64,000 bases of DNA. Origin: Saccharicrinis sp. GTDB lineage: Bacteria > Bacteroidota > Bacteroidia > Bacteroidales > Marinilabiliaceae. The DNA lies in assembly GCA_024635555.1 (NCBI GenBank), contig JAGXIO010000081.1, positions 17,516-81,515 on the forward strand, in the 5' to 3' direction. The notes below the pieces were generated by a model, which saw only the letters and a list, made by a program, of their open reading frames with translations, had not been told where the DNA came from and made no database searches. This document shows positions 26,319 to 37,928 of the stretch, in pieces (the stretch's first letter is position 1; every line of letters begins with the position of its first letter). The translations under genes were made by a program, and so were the position numbers.

Positions 26319-26810
26319 GTGAAAAAACATATAGGAACAAAAGTAATTGTAATTTTAAGTTTTTTACTGATTGGTTTAAACTTAAATGCGATTGAACGAA
26401 GCCAGTTTTACTCGGTATTTTCCAGTGATTCATTGGAAGATGTAAACAACCTAATTATGCAGCTTGAAGGAGAGTCTGAAAATTCTACAACAAATGCATT
26501 TAAAGGAGCATTGTATATGCAGATGGCACCTCTTCTTTCTGATCCAAAATCAAAACTTGAGGCATTTAAAAAAGGCAAAATACTTTTGGAGAAAGAGATT
26601 GGAGATCAACCAAATAATATAGAGTATCGTTTTTTACGCTTTGCTGTGCAGGAACAATCACCGGTTTTTCTAAGATACAAAAATGAAATAAAAGAGGATA
26701 AGAATTTAATTATTACACATTTTTCAAAACTGGATTATTCCATTCAAAAACAAATAGTTAATTACACCAAAAAATCTAAGATTCTTCACAAAAAAGACCT
26801 AAAGCCTTAA
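26319..26810 (+). CDS. Secreted hypothetical protein, first gene of the dar-like operon (GTG start)
   Basis: Signal peptide MKKHIGTKVIVILSFLLIGLNLNA; abuts the DarA-like gene (stop at 26810, next ATG at 26811). Confidence 0.75.
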   Translation: MKKHIGTKVIVILSFLLIGLNLNAIERSQFYSVFSSDSLEDVNNLIMQLEGESENSTTNAFKGALYMQMAPLLSDPKSKLEAFKKGKILLEKEIGDQPNNIEYRFLRFAVQEQSPVFLRYKNEIKEDKNLIITHFSKLDYSIQKQIVNYTKKSKILHKKDLKP

Positions 26811-27722
26811 ATGAAAATACTGATTATTTCCTATTCACAGACCGGGCAGCTTAACGAATTAATAACAAACTGCACACATCGGATAGATCAAGCAGATATT
26901 GACAGAATTGAAATCAAACCAAAAAATGAATTTCCATTTCCATGGACATCTGAATCATTTTTTGATACCATGCCCGAATCTGTTCTTGAAACTAAAACAG
27001 AGCTTAACCCGATCAATTACAAACATGAAAAATATGATGTTATCATATTAGGATATCAACCTTGGTTTTTATCTCCATCCATTCCAACAAGTTCCTTACT
27101 TCAAGAGCAGAGTTTTTTAGACCGCGTAAAAGATACGCCGGTGATAACAATAATTGGCTCACGAAATATGTGGGTTAATGCACAAATTAGTGTAGACAAG
27201 CGCATTTCAGCAGCCGGAGGAAAAATTGTTGGAAATATTCCTTTTAACGACTCGCACAATAACTATATCAGTGCTTTTACAATTCTGCATTGGATGCTAA
27301 GTGGTAAGAAAACTAAAAAATGGGGGATTTTCCCAAAACCCGGTGTGAGCTCCAAGGATATTGAAGAAGCAAGCAGTTATACTGACGTTTTGAATACAGC
27401 CATTCAAAATAATGAGTTTCAAAACCTTCAGACAGAAATACTTAAACAAGGTAAAATAACTTTAAAAACAGGAATATGGTTTGTTGAGAATGCAGGTAGG
27501 CGCGTGTTTAAAATTTGGTCTATTTTAATTACCAAACTCGGTACAACTCCTAAAAAAAGAAAAATTTTACTTACCATTTACAAGTACTATTTGATTGTTG
27601 CTTTATTTTTTATCGCTCCAATAGTTGTAAGCATTTTCAAGCTGCTAATACTACCCTTTGTTTACAAGAGAATTAACAAAAGAAAATTCTATATTTGCAG
27701 TAATAAATTTGAAATGGAATGA
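26811..27722 (+). CDS. darA: Dialkylresorcinol condensing enzyme, DarA-like (flavodoxin-like)
   Basis: MKILIISYSQTGQLNELI flavodoxin-like start, LGYQPWFLSPSIPTSSLLQ, TIIGSRNMW; adjacent to a DarB-like KAS III. Confidence 0.82.
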   Translation: MKILIISYSQTGQLNELITNCTHRIDQADIDRIEIKPKNEFPFPWTSESFFDTMPESVLETKTELNPINYKHEKYDVIILGYQPWFLSPSIPTSSLLQEQSFLDRVKDTPVITIIGSRNMWVNAQISVDKRISAAGGKIVGNIPFNDSHNNYISAFTILHWMLSGKKTKKWGIFPKPGVSSKDIEEASSYTDVLNTAIQNNEFQNLQTEILKQGKITLKTGIWFVENAGRRVFKIWSILITKLGTTPKKRKILLTIYKYYLIVALFFIAPIVVSIFKLLILPFVYKRINKRKFYICSNKFEME

Positions 27723-28861
27723 CCAACGTTTTTATAACAAAAACATCTACTTTTTTACCTAATGAAGCTGTATCAAATAACGATATGGAAGGTTACTTAG
27801 GTTATATTAATGGGAGGCCTTCAAAATCAAAAGCAATTGTTTTGCGCAGCAATGGTATCGAACAAAGATATTATGCGCTTACTCCCGAGGGAATTCCTAC
27901 GCACACAAATGCCGAAATGGTATCGTTAGCGATTAAAAATCTTTTTGTTGCTAATCCCGAATCTATTTCAAGTGTTGATTTATTAACCTGTGGCACAACC
28001 ACTCCAGATCAATTACTGCCTTCTCATTCGATTATGGTTCATGGTTTATTGCCGGAGATTGGAGTAATTGAAGTAACATCAAATGCCGGTTCTTGTTGTT
28101 CAGGAATGCACGCGCTAAAATATGCATATATGTCGGTTAAAACCGGCGAAAAGCAAAATGCAGTGTGTGCTGGTTCCGAAAGAATTTCATCCATCATCAA
28201 ATCAGATACTTTTGAAGACGAAGGCAAACATATAGAAGCTCTTGAAGCTAACCCTTATGTCGCTTTCGAAAAAGACTTCTTACGGTGGATGTTATCTGAT
28301 GGTGCCGGAGCTTTTCAATTGCAAAACAAACCAAATACCGAAGGTATATCTTTACGTATCGAATGGATAGAGCTTGCGTCATTTGCAAATAAAAATGATT
28401 CTTGCATGTATATGGGAGCAGAAAAACAGAAGGATGGTTCTTTAAAGAGTTATCAGGATATTCCTCAAAAAGAACTACTTACAAAATCCATTTTAAGTAT
28501 AAAACAAGATGTGAAACTTTTAAGTGCTCAAATAGTAACTCAAGGTTTTTATTTGTTGAAGAGTTTTTTAGAGAAGCATAAAATTAAAGTAGATGAAATT
28601 GACTATCTACTTCCTCACATGTCTAGCTACTTTTTTAAAGATAAGATTTATAATATTTTAAAGGAGAATGGAATTGGAATACCTTATGAAAAGTGGTATA
28701 CTAATTTAAAGGAGAAAGGGAATATTGGTGCCGGGTCGATTTACATTATGCTTGATGGACTGGTGAATTCTGGTAAGCTTAAAAAAGGAGAGAAAATTCT
28801 TTTACTTGTTCCGGAAAGTGCTCGCTTTTCATACGCATATTGCTTGTTAACAGTCTGCTAA
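27719..28861 (+). CDS. darB: Beta-ketoacyl-ACP synthase III, DarB-like
   Basis: NAGSCCSGMHALKYA (Cys), YLLPHMSSYFF (His), EKGNIGAGSIY (Asn): intact C-H-N triad; ATGA overlap with DarA-like gene. Confidence 0.87.
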   Translation: MTNVFITKTSTFLPNEAVSNNDMEGYLGYINGRPSKSKAIVLRSNGIEQRYYALTPEGIPTHTNAEMVSLAIKNLFVANPESISSVDLLTCGTTTPDQLLPSHSIMVHGLLPEIGVIEVTSNAGSCCSGMHALKYAYMSVKTGEKQNAVCAGSERISSIIKSDTFEDEGKHIEALEANPYVAFEKDFLRWMLSDGAGAFQLQNKPNTEGISLRIEWIELASFANKNDSCMYMGAEKQKDGSLKSYQDIPQKELLTKSILSIKQDVKLLSAQIVTQGFYLLKSFLEKHKIKVDEIDYLLPHMSSYFFKDKIYNILKENGIGIPYEKWYTNLKEKGNIGAGSIYIMLDGLVNSGKLKKGEKILLLVPESARFSYAYCLLTVC

Positions 28862-28882
28862 AAATATCTAATCACTACTATC

Positions 28883-29281
28883 GTGAAAAAAGGGGAAATA
28901 CCGCAAGATAAATCTACACTTGAAAACTTTACGGATGAAGTAATCTATGCGAAGGGTGAGGATGGAAAATATGACACCGGTTTAAGCACCGGTTGGAGTG
29001 TAAAATCAGAAGCACTCGATTCTGCTTGGGAAGATATTAACGGCGAACTCGAAGAGGCGCGTAAGGATGTGATGAACGGAACCAAAAGTCCCATATTTTA
29101 TTTCATGAAAAAAGAACTGATGGATGAAGCCATATTAGCTAGTTACGTTGGGTTTATGAAATTTAGAGTGAAAAGGCATTTTAAACCAAGCGTGTTCAAA
29201 AGAATAAAGAATTCTACGCTTGAAAAATATGCGTCTGTTTTTAATATAAGCATTGACGAATTAAAACTTTTTAAAGGCTAA
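28883..29281 (+). CDS. Hypothetical protein of dar-like operon (GTG start)
   Basis: Continuous ORF with TAATG-type coupling to the next gene. Confidence 0.75.
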   Translation: MKKGEIPQDKSTLENFTDEVIYAKGEDGKYDTGLSTGWSVKSEALDSAWEDINGELEEARKDVMNGTKSPIFYFMKKELMDEAILASYVGFMKFRVKRHFKPSVFKRIKNSTLEKYASVFNISIDELKLFKG

Positions 29282-30294
29282 TGCAAAACCAATATACGCA
29301 TACTCAATCTGCACATTGTGAAAATGGCGTTATTACCAACCTCATCAAGTCACACGGCCAGGATTTTATGACTGAGCCTTTAGCCTTTGGTATGGGTTCC
29401 GGATTGTTTTACATACACTTACCGTTTATAAAAGTAAACGGCATTCCTGCATTTTCTTTTAGAACTATGCCTGGTCGAATTTTTAAACGCACGTGCAAAA
29501 GCCTTCATATTGATATTGCGTCTAAAAAATTCAGCAATCCTAGAGTTGCTCAGGAATATCTGGATAAGCTCTTACAACAAGATAAGCTGATAGGTTGTCA
29601 GGTTGGAGTATATAACCTGACTTACTTTCCTAAAGAATATAGATTCCATTTTAATGCGCATAACTTGATTGTTTATGGTAAAGAAAATGGAAATTACTTG
29701 GTGAGTGACCCAGTGATGGAGAACGTTACAACACTTTCAGAAGTAGAAATGAATACAGTCCGTTTCGCTAAAGGTGTATTTGCTCCCAAAGGTCATTTGT
29801 ATTACATCAATAAAATTGGTGATATTACTAAGGAGGATATTAAGACGGGAATAGCAAAAGGTATTAAGCGAAATGTGAGAGATATGTTGCATATACCCGG
29901 TCCTATTGCAGGTGTAAGTGGCATAAAATATACTGCAAGGAAAGTAAAAGGTTGGCGTGAGAAATTAGGGCCGCGCAGAGCCGGACAATATCTGGGTCAG
30001 ATCATACGCATGCAAGAAGAAATTGGCACTGGAGGTGGCGGTTTTCGATTTATGTATGCCGCATTCCTAGAACAAGCCGCTGGATACTTTGACAGTAAAG
30101 AACTTTTAGAAGTCTCTGATGAATTTACTAAAGCGGGTGATATGTGGAGACAAAGTGCTATGCTAATGGCAGGTGCATTGCGTGGACGTGCTTCGGAACA
30201 AAGTGATTACAATAACATGCATGATTTATTATATGATATTAGTGATGTAGAAAAAGAGGCTTTTAAACGCTTGTCTAAAATTAAATTAAAATAA
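29281..30294 (+). CDS. BtrH-N-terminal-domain-like protein (putative acyl transferase/peptidase-like)
   Basis: HCENGVITNLIKSHG N-terminal Cys motif, GFRFMYAAFLEQAAG C-terminal region. Confidence 0.75.
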   Translation: MQNQYTHTQSAHCENGVITNLIKSHGQDFMTEPLAFGMGSGLFYIHLPFIKVNGIPAFSFRTMPGRIFKRTCKSLHIDIASKKFSNPRVAQEYLDKLLQQDKLIGCQVGVYNLTYFPKEYRFHFNAHNLIVYGKENGNYLVSDPVMENVTTLSEVEMNTVRFAKGVFAPKGHLYYINKIGDITKEDIKTGIAKGIKRNVRDMLHIPGPIAGVSGIKYTARKVKGWREKLGPRRAGQYLGQIIRMQEEIGTGGGGFRFMYAAFLEQAAGYFDSKELLEVSDEFTKAGDMWRQSAMLMAGALRGRASEQSDYNNMHDLLYDISDVEKEAFKRLSKIKLK

Positions 30295-31029
30295 GTGAGT
30301 CAGGCTATCATTCAAATAGAAAATCTGAGTAAGCGCTATAAAGGTTCAAAGGATTATAGCTTACATGATGTTTCTCTCATAATTAATAAGGGAGAAAAAT
30401 TTGGTATTTTTGGACCCAACGGTGCCGGAAAAACTACTTTAATCTCTATCATCTGCAAACTCTTTTCCCAGACTTCAGGAAAAGTTCACAACTTTCCAAT
30501 CAAGGGTGAAGCTCTAAGCATAGGGTTTGTTCCTCAGGATCTTGCATTGCATGAGGAACTGACAGCATATCAAAATTTGGAATATTTTGGAGCGCTATAT
30601 AAACTCACTAAAAAGGAAGTTAAATTAAGATTGTTAAGTTTACTTGCGATGTTAGGATTATCAAACGTAGCACATAAAAAAGTAAAGACTTTTTCGGGTG
30701 GTATGAAACGCAGGCTTAATCTGGCCATTGGGATTATTCATGAACCCGATATTATATTTCTGGATGAACCGACGGTGGGCGTAGATATTCAGTCGAAAAA
30801 TGCCATCATGACCTTTTTAAATGAACTAAACCAAAAAGGCATGACCATTATATACACCTCGCACCACATGGAAGAAGCTGAAGAGTTTTGTACGAAGATT
30901 GCCATTTTGGATTACGGCAAATTGATAGCAAATGATACGCTACAAAACCTTTATGCAACGCATAAGGTATCAGGTTTGATGGAAATTATGATACTTTTAA
31001 CAGGAAAAGAGTACAGAGATAATGTATAG
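30295..31029 (+). CDS. ABC transporter ATP-binding protein
   Basis: Walker A GPNGAGKTT, signature FSGGMKRRLNLA, Walker B IIFLDEPTVGVD. Confidence 0.96.
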   Translation: MSQAIIQIENLSKRYKGSKDYSLHDVSLIINKGEKFGIFGPNGAGKTTLISIICKLFSQTSGKVHNFPIKGEALSIGFVPQDLALHEELTAYQNLEYFGALYKLTKKEVKLRLLSLLAMLGLSNVAHKKVKTFSGGMKRRLNLAIGIIHEPDIIFLDEPTVGVDIQSKNAIMTFLNELNQKGMTIIYTSHHMEEAEEFCTKIAILDYGKLIANDTLQNLYATHKVSGLMEIMILLTGKEYRDNV

Positions 31030-32293
31030 ACTACGGATATCCATAAAGAAAGAATTGATACTTCTTATTAATGATAAGGTTGGTTTGGCATTGATGTTTG
31101 GCTTACCTTTATTACTCGTATTTATCATTACCATTATTCAGGATTCAGCATTTAGGATTGTCAATAACAATCAAATTTCGATGTTGATTTCCAATCATGA
31201 CAATGGCGAATTAGGAGGTAAATTATCAAACATGCTATCGGAATCAGGTATGTTTTTAGTGGTTGAAAACAATACGATAGACTCCCTAGAATTGAAACAA
31301 AGAGTGGCAAAAAACGAAGCCTTAACGGGTATTTATATATCTGCTGATTTCTCAAAAATGCTCACTGATTTGTCAAATAATATCAGCATCCAAATGTTAA
31401 AAGACTTTGGGCTTGGAGATAAAGAAATTAAAGAGGCAAGTTTCCCTTCGATTATGTTTGTACACGACCCCGTATTACAGGAAAATTACTGCCAATCGAT
31501 TATGGGTATGATATATGCGCATATGGGTAGCATAGAGAGCTTTCGTATGATAGAGAGCATTTATGCTGAAATGGGGCAAGATACCGTACCTGATTACATC
31601 AAGCAAAACATTACCAAGAACCATATTTTAATAGAACGCACACCAGCTTCAAAAAACGAAAAAATGGTAACACCTAATGCCACTCAGCACAATGTGCCAG
31701 CTTGGACTGTATTTGCCATGTTTTTTATGGTGGTTTCATTGGGTACAAACATAGTAAAGGAACGTAATTCGGGCAGTTTCTTACGCATAAAAACAATGCC
31801 TTCAAGCTTCTCAATGATTCTCAGCAGCAAGCAAATTGTGTACATCGCAGTAGGCATCTTACAAGTTTTCTTAATTTTCAGTATGGGGGTATACGTATTT
31901 CCTCATATTAACCTACCGGAATTGTACTTGCCGCAGAATATGACCGGTATGTTTATAATTACACTATTAAGCGCAGTTACCGCAGTAAGCTATTCACTGA
32001 TGATTGGCGCTTTAGCCAAAACACAGGAACAAGCAAATGGCATAGGAGCTATTTCAATAATTATTTTAGCTGCTCTGGGTGGCGTATGGGTTCCCACATT
32101 TGTGATGCCCGAATATATGCAAATAATTAGTAAGTTTTCACCTTTACATTGGTGCATTGAAGGCTACTATATATTATTTTTAAAAAATGGAAATTGGCAC
32201 GACCTATTCCGAATTATACTAATTTTGGCTTCCTTCAGCCTTGCTTTTCAGCTGATAACCTATCTGAAATTTAAAATTGATAAAATTATTTAA
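31022..32293 (+). CDS. ABC-2 type transporter permease
   Basis: N-terminal TM, large extracytoplasmic loop, five C-terminal TM-like segments; overlaps the ATPase gene by 8 bp. Confidence 0.92.
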   Translation: MYRLRISIKKELILLINDKVGLALMFGLPLLLVFIITIIQDSAFRIVNNNQISMLISNHDNGELGGKLSNMLSESGMFLVVENNTIDSLELKQRVAKNEALTGIYISADFSKMLTDLSNNISIQMLKDFGLGDKEIKEASFPSIMFVHDPVLQENYCQSIMGMIYAHMGSIESFRMIESIYAEMGQDTVPDYIKQNITKNHILIERTPASKNEKMVTPNATQHNVPAWTVFAMFFMVVSLGTNIVKERNSGSFLRIKTMPSSFSMILSSKQIVYIAVGILQVFLIFSMGVYVFPHINLPELYLPQNMTGMFIITLLSAVTAVSYSLMIGALAKTQEQANGIGAISIIILAALGGVWVPTFVMPEYMQIISKFSPLHWCIEGYYILFLKNGNWHDLFRIILILASFSLAFQLITYLKFKIDKII

Positions 32294-32298
32294 GCACT

Positions 32299-32568
32299 AT
32301 GGAAATGGATAAAGAACAATTAAAAAAGGAATTGATAAATCACATTATTACTTACCTAAACTTATCAGATTATACACCGGAAGAGATTACTGCCGACATG
32401 CCTCTTTTTGGAGATGCCGGTTTGGAGCTTGACTCGATAGATTCACTTGAATTAATAGTGATGATGGAAAGAGAATATGGTGTTAAACTTACGAACCCTA
32501 CCGAAGGACGTAAAATTTTGATAGATGTAAACAGCATGGCTGATTTTATTATTGCTAACAAAAAATAA
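32299..32568 (+). CDS. Acyl carrier protein
   Basis: LELDSIDSLELIVMMEREYGV: phosphopantetheine-site DSxxxxEL motif. Confidence 0.93.
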   Translation: MEMDKEQLKKELINHIITYLNLSDYTPEEITADMPLFGDAGLELDSIDSLELIVMMEREYGVKLTNPTEGRKILIDVNSMADFIIANKK

Positions 32569-33759
32569 ATGGATATTTACGTTACAGGACTTGGCTGCAT
32601 TAGCCCTTTAGGTTTCAATGTAGAAGAAAATCATCTTCAACTAAAAACAGAAAGAGACGGCCTTGTAAAGTCTAAATATTTAGAATCTAAATATAAAAGC
32701 GAGAAATTCTTTGGGGAAGTAAAGATGGATACTTCATCCTTACTTCAAAAGGTAAATATTCCAAATAAAAAAGGGCTTACTCGTACCGATGCCCTAGCTT
32801 TTATTGCATTTGATGAAGCCATCCATCATGCAGGATTACTGAAGAAAGACATCAATGATTCTTCCACTGCATTTATATCGGCAAGTACAGTGGGGGGAAT
32901 GTGTTTAACGGATGAGCTATATAGAGATTCAAATTTACATGGAAAAAATTCGGAATACGCTCAATCTTATAACTGCGCAGCTCACACCCTTAGAATTACA
33001 AAAGAGTATCAATTAAAAGGCTTTACCAATACCATAAATACGGCATGTTCGTCTAGTGCAAATGCAATAATGATTGGTATGAAGCTAATCAGAACCGGGC
33101 GCGCAAAACGAGCTATTGTAGGCGGTGTGGATAGTCTGGCTAAATACACCGTAAATGGATTTAATGCACTGCAAATACTTACGGATAAAAAATGCACGCC
33201 ATTTGATGTGGCCAGAGAAGGATTAAATCTTGGCGAAGCTGCTGCCTATATTGTTTTGGAGGCAGAAGATGTGTGTATCGGCAAAACTAAATATGCTAAG
33301 ATATTAGGTGCAGGAAATACGAATGACGCTTATCATGCTTCTGCGATGAGTGAAACTGCAGATGGCGTAACAGCTTGTATTTTAGAAGCTATAGCTGATA
33401 GTAAAATATCAAAAGAAGCAATTAATTACATCAATGCGCATGGTACTGGAACACAAAATAACGACCAGGTTGAATTAACCGGGTTCCATAATGTATTTGC
33501 TAATATTCCACCATTCAGCTCAACAAAATCATATACAGGTCACACATTGGGAGCTGCCGGTTCGTTAGAAGCCGTTTATAGTATATTAAGCATAGTAAAT
33601 AACGAAATGTACCCGAGTTTACGCGTCACGAATGCAATTCCTGATTGTCATAAAATGCTTGTTATGCAATACACTAACGACATTGAAATCAATACCGTAC
33701 TCTCTAATTCTTATGGCTTTGGAGGAAACTGTACTTCACTTATATTTAGCGATATCTAA
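32569..33759 (+). CDS. Beta-ketoacyl-ACP synthase (KS-alpha-like, catalytic residues intact)
   Basis: INTACSSSANAIMIG (Cys), NAHGTGTQNND (His), KSYTGHTLGAAGS (His). Confidence 0.93.
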   Translation: MDIYVTGLGCISPLGFNVEENHLQLKTERDGLVKSKYLESKYKSEKFFGEVKMDTSSLLQKVNIPNKKGLTRTDALAFIAFDEAIHHAGLLKKDINDSSTAFISASTVGGMCLTDELYRDSNLHGKNSEYAQSYNCAAHTLRITKEYQLKGFTNTINTACSSSANAIMIGMKLIRTGRAKRAIVGGVDSLAKYTVNGFNALQILTDKKCTPFDVAREGLNLGEAAAYIVLEAEDVCIGKTKYAKILGAGNTNDAYHASAMSETADGVTACILEAIADSKISKEAINYINAHGTGTQNNDQVELTGFHNVFANIPPFSSTKSYTGHTLGAAGSLEAVYSILSIVNNEMYPSLRVTNAIPDCHKMLVMQYTNDIEINTVLSNSYGFGGNCTSLIFSDI

Positions 33760-34802
33760 TGTACGTAATTAAAACATCCAATATATCTCCCCAGAACACG
33801 CATAACGGTCAGTTTATGCAACAAACCATTTCTTATACTGGGAATAAATATTCGGCTATCGAACCTGATTACACTGCAATGATTCGTCCTGCTCAACTGC
33901 GCAGGATGGGAAAGTGTATTCGAATGGGAACAGGATCTGCTTTACCTATACTACAAGACGAAGATAAATTAGATGGTATCATTTTAGGTTCCAGCGAAGG
34001 AGGTTTGGAGGATTGTATTAAATTTTTAATCCAAATAGTTGACTACAACGAAGGCACGCTTACACCTACCAACTTTGTACAAAGCACACCCAATGCGCTG
34101 GCAGGTAACCTAGCCATTATGAGTAAGAATAAATCGTACAACACGACTCACGTTCACAGGGGTTTAGCATTTGAAAATGCCTTGTTAGATGCACTCCTTT
34201 TATTTGATGAACAAAAGGCAGAGACGCTCCTCGTAGGCAATGTAGACGAAATTTCAGAATATAATTTTAATATAGAAACAAAAGCCGATCAGTATAAGAA
34301 AGAAGAAATAAGTTCCGATGAATTATTAAACTCTCAAACCTCTGGAACTGTTTGTGGTGAAGGCTCTAGTATGTTTTTACTATCGAGCAAACCAACTAAT
34401 GCTGTTGCCCAAATTGTTGATGTAAGCCATATATGCTATCCACAAAAAGAAGAAATTATAGCGTTTACAAATACATTCCTTTCGAAAAATGGCTTAATAC
34501 CAGCAGATATTGACTCCGTAATAGTAGGTAGAAACGGAGACTGTAAAACAGACTTTTGGTACGATTTAGTGTGCGATGAAATGTTCAAAACTCAAAACCT
34601 GTATAGCTTTAAAAATTTAGTTGGTGAATATCCAACAGCCAGTGCTTTTGCCACCTACTTTGCCTGTAATCTTGTTGCCGGCAAAAAAGCCCCCAAAGCA
34701 TCCATAATTCATGAATGCACTGTCCCAAAAACCATCCTTATCTATAACCACTTTAAGGGAGAGCAGCACGGACTTATTTTGGTAAAACAATCCCAATTGT
34801 AG
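33759..34802 (+). CDS. KS-like protein lacking catalytic residues (chain-length-factor-like)
   Basis: Fold-level resemblance (GIILGSSEGGLED..., NFVQSTPNALAGNLAIM) but C-H-H positions read NTTHVHRG, GRNGDCKTD and VGEYPTAS. Confidence 0.78.
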   Translation: MYVIKTSNISPQNTHNGQFMQQTISYTGNKYSAIEPDYTAMIRPAQLRRMGKCIRMGTGSALPILQDEDKLDGIILGSSEGGLEDCIKFLIQIVDYNEGTLTPTNFVQSTPNALAGNLAIMSKNKSYNTTHVHRGLAFENALLDALLLFDEQKAETLLVGNVDEISEYNFNIETKADQYKKEEISSDELLNSQTSGTVCGEGSSMFLLSSKPTNAVAQIVDVSHICYPQKEEIIAFTNTFLSKNGLIPADIDSVIVGRNGDCKTDFWYDLVCDEMFKTQNLYSFKNLVGEYPTASAFATYFACNLVAGKKAPKASIIHECTVPKTILIYNHFKGEQHGLILVKQSQL

Positions 34803-34812
34803 CTCGTTTATT

Positions 34813-36036
34813 TTGATCAATTTTAATTTCGTGCGTTTGATGATAGACAAAAGAAACAGAAAGCAAATGAAAAACTGGATTAACAGAAGTCTCCTTTTTA
34901 TAGTTGTATTTGGTTTTATCGCCACGGGAGTTGATGGCCAAATTCAATTTAAGGAAAGTGCCTTTCTTCCTGCACCAACAGGCTTATATTCCATAGGAAC
35001 AACTGAGTTTTTTTTAAAGGATTCTTCCCAATTAAACTATGTTTCAAATAAAGAAGAGTACAAACGTCTGCACGTAAAAATATGGTATCCATCGGATAGT
35101 TTAATCGAAGATAGTTCCGTGTGCAACAATTATTTAGAAGGATATGATTTAAAAGAGATTTACAAAACATTTAAAAGCAAAGGAACTAGTTTTAATGACA
35201 TTCAAGAATTAGCCAAGCAAAAAACCAATTCAATTGAAGGTTTACCCGTATCGGCTACTAAATCAAAATATCCAATGCTAATATTCACCCCAGCATATAT
35301 GTTTGGTTGCAATGATATTTATTCATCAATAATAGAGAATTTAGCAAGTAATGGATATATTATTTGTTCTGTCACACATGTATTTGAGCAAATTTGTATT
35401 ATTGATACGGAATCTACTCATTTACAAAGAGCAAAAGTATCAAGACCTTACTTCCAATATTGGCTCGCACAGAAATTAGCTTCAAATAAAAAGAGTACAG
35501 AAGAATTAACACAATACTTTTTAGAACGTATGTCTCGTTTTGATGAAATTCTTGGAAAATGGCAGCAAAGCACATTGTATTTACTAAGTGTTCTGAAAAA
35601 TGAAACCTACAATAATAACTCTATTATAAATAAGATAGACTTTGAAAACATCGGTGCATTTGGCCACTCTTTCGGAGGGGCACTTTCAAATCAACTTTGT
35701 TTAAGTAATCCAAGTATAAAAGCATCCGTTAATATGGATTGCTTTCAATTTGGAGATATGATTAACACGGAAAGTTCTAAGCCTATCATGCTCATTGAAA
35801 GTGATTACATTAAAGAGTGGCAGATGGCTAATAGTGTGATTTATAGAAACATGAACCAACTATCATATCATAAGATAGCAAAAACAAAACATTTTGCATT
35901 TACTGATCTGGTTTTTTTTGATAAGATTATTACCAAAGAAATTATTGAAAACATGATTGGTGAAATGGATGGTAGAAATGCGATAGAAGAGACTAATGGC
36001 TTAATTCTGGATTTTTTTAATAAAAATTTATTTTAA
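34813..36036 (+). CDS. Secreted alpha/beta hydrolase (PAF-acetylhydrolase-like)
   Basis: Signal peptide; GAFGHSFGGALSNQL nucleophile elbow; KTKHFAFTDL catalytic His region. A start at or downstream of 34813 is possible. Confidence 0.8.
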   Translation: MINFNFVRLMIDKRNRKQMKNWINRSLLFIVVFGFIATGVDGQIQFKESAFLPAPTGLYSIGTTEFFLKDSSQLNYVSNKEEYKRLHVKIWYPSDSLIEDSSVCNNYLEGYDLKEIYKTFKSKGTSFNDIQELAKQKTNSIEGLPVSATKSKYPMLIFTPAYMFGCNDIYSSIIENLASNGYIICSVTHVFEQICIIDTESTHLQRAKVSRPYFQYWLAQKLASNKKSTEELTQYFLERMSRFDEILGKWQQSTLYLLSVLKNETYNNNSIINKIDFENIGAFGHSFGGALSNQLCLSNPSIKASVNMDCFQFGDMINTESSKPIMLIESDYIKEWQMANSVIYRNMNQLSYHKIAKTKHFAFTDLVFFDKIITKEIIENMIGEMDGRNAIEETNGLILDFFNKNLF

Positions 36037-37535
36037 CGATTAAACTTTAAACCTTCATTTTTACAAATAATCTGGGTCAAATGATTACCCATCATTACAA
36101 CATTACTCAAACCACCGGATATGCCTGCCCATTGTCCGGTCATGTAAAAGTTTGATAAACCATTAATCTGCCATAAAGTAGGTTTTCCAAAAGTTTTATG
36201 AGTTGCTTTCCAGCTTATTTGTCCACCAGTCCAGTTGTTGGTATAACGGATATATGTTGCAGGTGTGGCAACATCTATCATTTCAATATTTTCTTTAACA
36301 TTTCCATAACAATTATCTAAAGCCTCAATAATCTCATTTGCAATGCGCTCTTTTTCTTGCTTGTATTTCTGAATATCTGTTTTTCTTAAATTGACCCAAT
36401 ATTTCCAGTCTTTTGATTCGGGCATTAATGACAATAACGATTTTCCTTTAGGTGCAGATGAAGGATCGTCACAAAAATGGGTGGTTTCTAATACGTTTAA
36501 TTCCGTCATTGGGTCAATTCTGATTGGCTTATTTAATTCAAAATGCAGCTTATGCGGTTGATCCGAAAAATCTTTGTTTATTCCAACCGAAACATAGAGT
36601 GTTTTATCAATCGTTTCAAAAATATCCCCCTCATACCGCTCAATAATATTTGGGTCTTTGAATTTACCACCCAACATATCATAAACAGTAGAACGTCCAT
36701 CTGCTGCTGATACAATAAGGTTGGCATAGTGTTTCTCACCATTCTCTAACTCAATTCCTTTAACCACATTATTTTCGACAAGTATTTTAGCTGTTTTGGA
36801 GTTAAAATGAATGTTTCCTCCAGCAGCTTTGTATTTTTTTTCTATTAAACTGGAAATATGAACTGCTCCACCTTTAGGATATCCCATTTCCTTTTTATGT
36901 CGCCAAACCATGGTCATAATGGAATAAAATGATGGTGTTTCTCCAATAAAGGCAGTTTCAAAAGCACGTTTAAGATTTGGATTCTTAAACTTAGCTGCAA
37001 ATTCTTTATTTGATATTTTCACATACTTTAAAAGTGTATATAAATAGGGCATCATTAGGTAAGCTACTTTTAACTTATCCTTCATATTCATCAACTCGTA
37101 AGGCTTATCGACCGGTAAATTCAACTTCGAGAATTTTTTTATGAGACGAATTAGCTTTTTAATCTGCTTTTTATCTTCGGGAGCCTTACTTAATAGTTCG
37201 TTTTCTAATTGATTGACATTACTGTAAAAGGAAATTCGGTTTTTATTTATGTCTTCAACTACACAATGGGCATCGTGATAAATAAAATCGATGGATTTCA
37301 TATCTATTAAATCACTCCAAAACTGATAACTGCTATCCGTAGGCGATACGCCCATCATAAAATGAATACAACCATCTATCATGTAATCTTTTCGCTTCCA
37401 TGAAGTACAAAGCCCACCAGAACAAGCGTGCATTTCGAAAATTTCAGTATCGAATCCATTGTTTTGCAAATGGCAACCTGCCGACATTCCTGCTAATCCT
37501 CCACCTATGATGATGACTTTTTTATTTTTGGTCAT
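36033..37535 (-). CDS. FAD-dependent phytoene-desaturase/isomerase-like oxidoreductase
   Basis: KVIIIGGGLAGMSAGCHLQNNGFDTEIFEMHACSGGLCTSW; C-terminal FYMTGQWAGISGGLSNVVMMGNH. Convergent with the upstream operon, 4-bp 3' overlap. ATG at 37535 preferred. Confidence 0.87.
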   Translation of the reverse strand: MTKNKKVIIIGGGLAGMSAGCHLQNNGFDTEIFEMHACSGGLCTSWKRKDYMIDGCIHFMMGVSPTDSSYQFWSDLIDMKSIDFIYHDAHCVVEDINKNRISFYSNVNQLENELLSKAPEDKKQIKKLIRLIKKFSKLNLPVDKPYELMNMKDKLKVAYLMMPYLYTLLKYVKISNKEFAAKFKNPNLKRAFETAFIGETPSFYSIMTMVWRHKKEMGYPKGGAVHISSLIEKKYKAAGGNIHFNSKTAKILVENNVVKGIELENGEKHYANLIVSAADGRSTVYDMLGGKFKDPNIIERYEGDIFETIDKTLYVSVGINKDFSDQPHKLHFELNKPIRIDPMTELNVLETTHFCDDPSSAPKGKSLLSLMPESKDWKYWVNLRKTDIQKYKQEKERIANEIIEALDNCYGNVKENIEMIDVATPATYIRYTNNWTGGQISWKATHKTFGKPTLWQINGLSNFYMTGQWAGISGGLSNVVMMGNHLTQIICKNEGLKFNR

Positions 37536-37928
37536 TCTTCTTATTATTTCCCATAACATTTTCAAATAAAACGTAAAGGTTTTTTAAATACTTACTTATC
37601 GAGTCTGCACACATCCAAATCTGCGATTCAAACACAAATCTAATATTTTACACCAAACCGTCAAACAACAGATTTGGCGAAGCTTATTATTTTCAACCTC
37701 TCGTATCGCTAACCTTAGGTGTATTTTTTAAAGTTGCTAAGTATTGCCTGCCAACCTTCTCTGACCATTTGTTCAGCGCTTTCGCCTTTTCATTCATAAA
37801 TTATTGTTAGTCTAGCTTTGTCTCCAATATTCACTATTCTCTCAACTCTCCACTTTACGCTGTCTCATTTATTTACGTTTTTCGCTGTGTTCTTTTCGCT
37901 TTTTTATTTCCGCTGTTCGCTTTTACGC

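Follow-up and report, generated by a model that had tools for sequence, protein, structure and literature searches.

The window, a stretch of 64,000 nucleotides from a draft genome of Saccharicrinis sp., harbours eleven open reading frames (ORFs) on the + strand, spanning 26319-36036, and then a convergent ORF on the - strand at 36033-37565. An ATG start of the convergent ORF would lie at 37535, the coordinate given in an earlier annotation made from the letters of the window only (the sequence-only reading). The ORF coordinates agree with that reading in the eleven same-strand genes, in their stop/start overlaps, and in the convergent gene; the same flanking genes were also recognized, namely folP and cdaA at one end and the MoxR/DUF58 Bat genes at the other. 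The ORFs are listed below, with the evidence for each in brackets.

26319..26810, + strand: secreted protein directly upstream of darA (conserved position in this dar lineage)
26811..27722, + strand: DarA-like protein, resorcinol-forming partner of DarB (homology, adjoins darB)
27719..28861, + strand: DarB, dialkylresorcinol ketosynthase/cyclase (NF053539)
28883..29281, + strand: DarG, flexirubin biosynthesis protein (NF053545)
29281..30294, + strand: DarH, BtrH-related acyltransferase (NF053550)
30295..31029, + strand: ABC transporter ATPase (PF00005, conserved position)
31022..32293, + strand: ABC-2 permease (PF12698, PF01061)
32299..32568, + strand: acyl carrier protein (ACP) with a DSID serine (PF00550)
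32569..33759, + strand: ketosynthase (KS) with active-site motifs (PF00109/PF02801)
33759..34802, + strand: chain-length-factor-like (CLF-like) KS without active-site motifs (PF13723)
34813..36036, + strand: secreted alpha/beta hydrolase of the PAF-AH family (PF03403, 75 bits)
36033..37565, - strand: CrtI-like FAD oxidoreductase (67% identical homologue beside flxY in locus L073)

DarB scored 598.3 bits against the model cut-off of 550, and its Cys126-His300-Asn335 triad, described as intact in the sequence-only reading, is invariant across 84 aligned DarBs. DarG matched its flexirubin equivalog model at 179.1 bits (cut-off 170) and DarH its acyltransferase model at 459.6 bits (cut-off 300). 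No Pfam or NCBIfam model matched DarA in the profile searches, and a plasmid search returned only hypothetical proteins of Streptomyces at 26% identity. Homologues with 32-75% identity adjoin darB in the compared loci, and phmmer detected DarA homologues in 70 loci; the name DarA is thus assigned by homology and synteny rather than by a curated model, and it is on these terms that a DarA/DarB pair with an intact DarB triad is present. The secreted protein at 26319..26810 lacks a Pfam match; 30-44% identical homologues lie beside darA in many loci (19 by phmmer). The place of the ABC ATPase in the gene order is likewise kept across the compared loci. Elsewhere in the genome, a second BtrH/DarH-like protein (G000:C12:2676-3611) scores 184 bits, below the DarH cut-off, and lies on a contig other than that of darB.

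The ACP, KS, and CLF-like KS of the operon are 44%, 42%, and 37% identical, respectively, to the corresponding flx proteins, which this genome carries on a different contig, C90. In the CLF-like protein, a search for KS active-site motifs found none, and PF13723 is its only Pfam match, in keeping with its earlier description as a dead KS. No homologue of the secreted hydrolase was found in the compared neighbourhoods, and judged by gene order it stands outside the conserved block, which comprises ten genes in the order sec-darA-darB-darG-darH-ABC-permease-ACP-KS-CLF. The convergent FAD oxidoreductase scored below every CrtI/CrtD cut-off (best 101.7 bits against 586.9; crtI_fam 93.5 against 238.1), and a role as a carotenoid desaturase (CrtI) was rejected on these scores; since its homologue in L073 adjoins flxY, it is probably an accessory to the flx set.

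The aryl-polyene genes were reported missing from the window by the sequence-only reading, and among the flx proteins tested the only counterparts found there were the dar ACP/KS/CLF paralogues and one weak oxidoreductase match. A Pfam search of the window's own genome gave a single aromatic-lyase match, located on C90 together with paralogues of the operon's KS, and counterparts of the ammonia lyase, FabG/FabZ-like, and aryl-CoA ligase genes named in that reading were all read on this contig. The aryl-polyene genes cover about 28 kb and include a FlxA-type tyrosine ammonia-lyase (C90:1635-3188; NF053541, 820.8 bits against a cut-off of 700) and a FlxY-type acyl-CoA ligase (4-coumarate CoA ligase; L032:7213-8505; NF053551, 691 bits against 520), while a FlxJ-like methyltransferase falls just below its cut-off (519.7 against 560). 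The gene order is ammonia-lyase, ketoreductase, KS, ACP, LpxL-like acyltransferase, methyltransferase, FabZ-like dehydratase, secreted protein, thioesterase, KS, short KS-like protein, ACP, KS, CLF, polysaccharide deacetylase, LolA-like protein, lipoprotein, second dehydratase-like protein, glycosyltransferase, MMPL exporter (with acyltransferase and methyltransferase parts joined to it in frame), two FAD oxidoreductases, C45 acyltransferase-like protein, two small secreted proteins, acyl-CoA ligase, and another acyltransferase-like protein, with the ketoreductase, LolA, and glycosyltransferase named from sequence reading and synteny, not from models. The polyene extension and export genes (KS/CLF, ketoreductase, dehydratase, ACP, LolA, and MMPL) have homologues in other flexirubin loci. 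As read from the ORFs, a phosphatidylserine decarboxylase gene borders the cluster at one end, and genes of the cytochrome/ferredoxin type border it at the other. Both dar and flx are bounded by unrelated genes, and the contig that carries dar continues for about 44 kb and 26 kb beyond the operon; dar and flx are therefore separate loci, on different contigs of the draft genome.

A contig scan of genomes yielded 80 darB loci. In 39 of these a FlxA-type lyase was encoded within about 10 kb (the fetched stretch), and all 20 genomes tested among the remainder encoded one elsewhere (52-80% identity, with histidine-lyase-like paralogues well apart at 32-38%). Comparison of gene order with flexirubin loci showed the same ten-gene block directly followed by flxA and a ketoreductase in Geofilum rhodophaeum (L038) and in two MAGs, one from Prolixibacteraceae (L040) and one from Marinilabiliaceae (L041). 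A further group of loci (L054, L056, L058, L060, L063, L079, L080, L091, L092, and L095, and also L042) has darB, darG, and darH together, with no darA, ABC, or ACP/KS genes nearby; a search of these stretches with a DarA profile was negative, in L063 the ORF that precedes darB resembles trigger factor, and every genome searched in this group has FlxA. In two loci, L114 and L052, the dar genes are on contigs labelled Deltaproteobacteria and Beijerinckiaceae, which reflects either transfer or mis-binned contigs.

A divided arrangement has been described before. The darB/darA genes of Chitinophaga pinensis (Cpin_6850/6851) are located away from its flxA-flxY genes (Cpin_1853-1877), and its pigment has been characterised (PMC3992019). 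Like the window genome, this species has dar and flx at two separate genomic places, and the shared content extends to FlxA, FlxY, ketosynthases, a reductase, dehydratases, a deacetylase, LolA, a glycosyltransferase, and an exporter. The window differs from C. pinensis in the hydrolase and convergent CrtI-like gene that neighbour dar, and its DarB and the DarB of Chitinophaga skermanii are of different dar lineages. In Azoarcus sp. BH72, the arcuflavin dar cluster azo0283-0293 is also apart from the polyene clusters, with nearly the same order of DarA, DarB, hypothetical, BtrH-like, ABC ATPase, permease, ACP, KS, and hypothetical; darF and darI are the positional equivalents of the ABC ATPase and ABC-2 permease of the window (PMC3949708). 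Unlike in the window, two PilT/prevent-host-death genes intervene in the Azoarcus cluster, and a XanB2-type chorismatase replaces the tyrosine ammonia-lyase of the window genome. Single-locus clusters of the Flavobacterium type (e.g. L064 and L104) encode the same Dar and Flx proteins, but with dar and flx interleaved at one locus.

Full-length DarB was detected in 4 of 41 relatives: the window genome, G002, G008, and G024. All four have FlxA (57-100% identity) and DarH, and they are exactly the relatives in which DarH exceeds its cut-off; DarH thus tracks the resorcinol half, a distribution that fits, without proving, a role in joining the polyene and resorcinol halves. Seven other relatives (G010, G012, G016, G021, G023, G025, and G027) have a FlxA-type lyase (52-79%) in the absence of DarB and DarH, and possibly make tyrosine-derived aryl polyenes that carry no resorcinol.

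With very high probability, the operon is a dar operon and belongs to a flexirubin-type pigment pathway, identified here at the gene level, that is divided between two loci. It corresponds to the half that supplies the resorcinol in the well-known pathway to the orange flexirubin pigments, and the split layout has been published. Gene content and family membership are the results presented here, and the chemistry is that established for homologues. By analogy with these, DarB and DarA would condense and aromatise two fatty-acid intermediates to a 2,5-dialkylresorcinol, while FlxA would deaminate tyrosine to 4-coumarate for activation by FlxY. ACPs, together with KS/CLF, the ketoreductase, and dehydratases, would extend the activated 4-coumarate, and the product would then be methylated, with LolA and MMPL serving its export. 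DarH, the candidate ester-forming enzyme, would most likely link the polyene acid to the resorcinol, taking the acyl group from an ACP, and transport proteins would carry the pigment to the outer membrane. A role of the dar ACP/KS/CLF set in this pathway is likewise inferred. The two separable loci offer a clean case for testing the so far unassigned ester-forming step, with DarH as candidate, and the role of the second ACP/KS/CLF set.

The sequence-only reading had left two interpretations side by side, one half of a split flexirubin cluster or a resorcinol lipid of a possibly new class. The former is supported at the level of genes: FlxA and FlxY are both on C90, as are the aryl-polyene genes whose presence elsewhere in the genome, together with a flexirubin pigment, was to make this an ordinary split cluster. 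According to the latter, the operon would work independently of C90 with an ACP, KS, and CLF of its own, and its product would be of a new class, either a free resorcinol lipid or a non-pigment ester. That dar possesses these genes and a private hydrolase, and is physically apart from the flx genes, agrees with such a product, but the ten-gene block is joined to flxA and a ketoreductase in other Bacteroidota and the split is published, so a new lipid class is not supported; FlxA is moreover present in every darB genome tested, and DarG matches a flexirubin equivalog model. We consider this interpretation very improbable, and a new class of resorcinol lipid was rejected because the genome contains the flx half. 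An ordinary split flexirubin pathway is thereby not mistaken for a new lipid class.

It is also conceivable that C90 directs a resorcinol-free aryl polyene and dar a free dialkylresorcinol lipid or signal, and that the two products are never joined. The seven relatives with FlxA in the absence of DarB imply that polyene clusters of the tyrosine ammonia-lyase type can stand alone, and free dialkylresorcinols are signals in some other bacteria. Joined dar/flx loci in many Bacteroidota argue against separate products, as does the flexirubin ester, which was shown in C. pinensis despite the same split (PMC3992019), and there is only a slight chance that the products remain apart. The split flexirubin-type pathway is the reading we retain.

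A quick DarB tree pairs the window sequence with L036 and places it in a clade of 20 rows (SH-aLRT 99), among them rows from Marinilabiliaceae, Prolixibacteraceae, Dyadobacter, and Crocinitomicaceae; the DarBs of two congeners, G002 and G008, are not in this clade. FlxA of these congeners is 81-82% identical to FlxA of C90, and their DarB only 51-53% identical to that of the window. On these comparisons, the dar operon of the window is of a different lineage from those of the two congeners. The quick tree and the FlxA and DarB identities suggest that the dar cassette may have been replaced or transferred, and loss of paralogues is a possible alternative source of the difference. A further reading, at somewhat less than even odds, is that the dar genes form an exchangeable cassette, so that resorcinol tails may be swapped while the polyene half is kept; DarH would then be the unassigned ester-forming enzyme.
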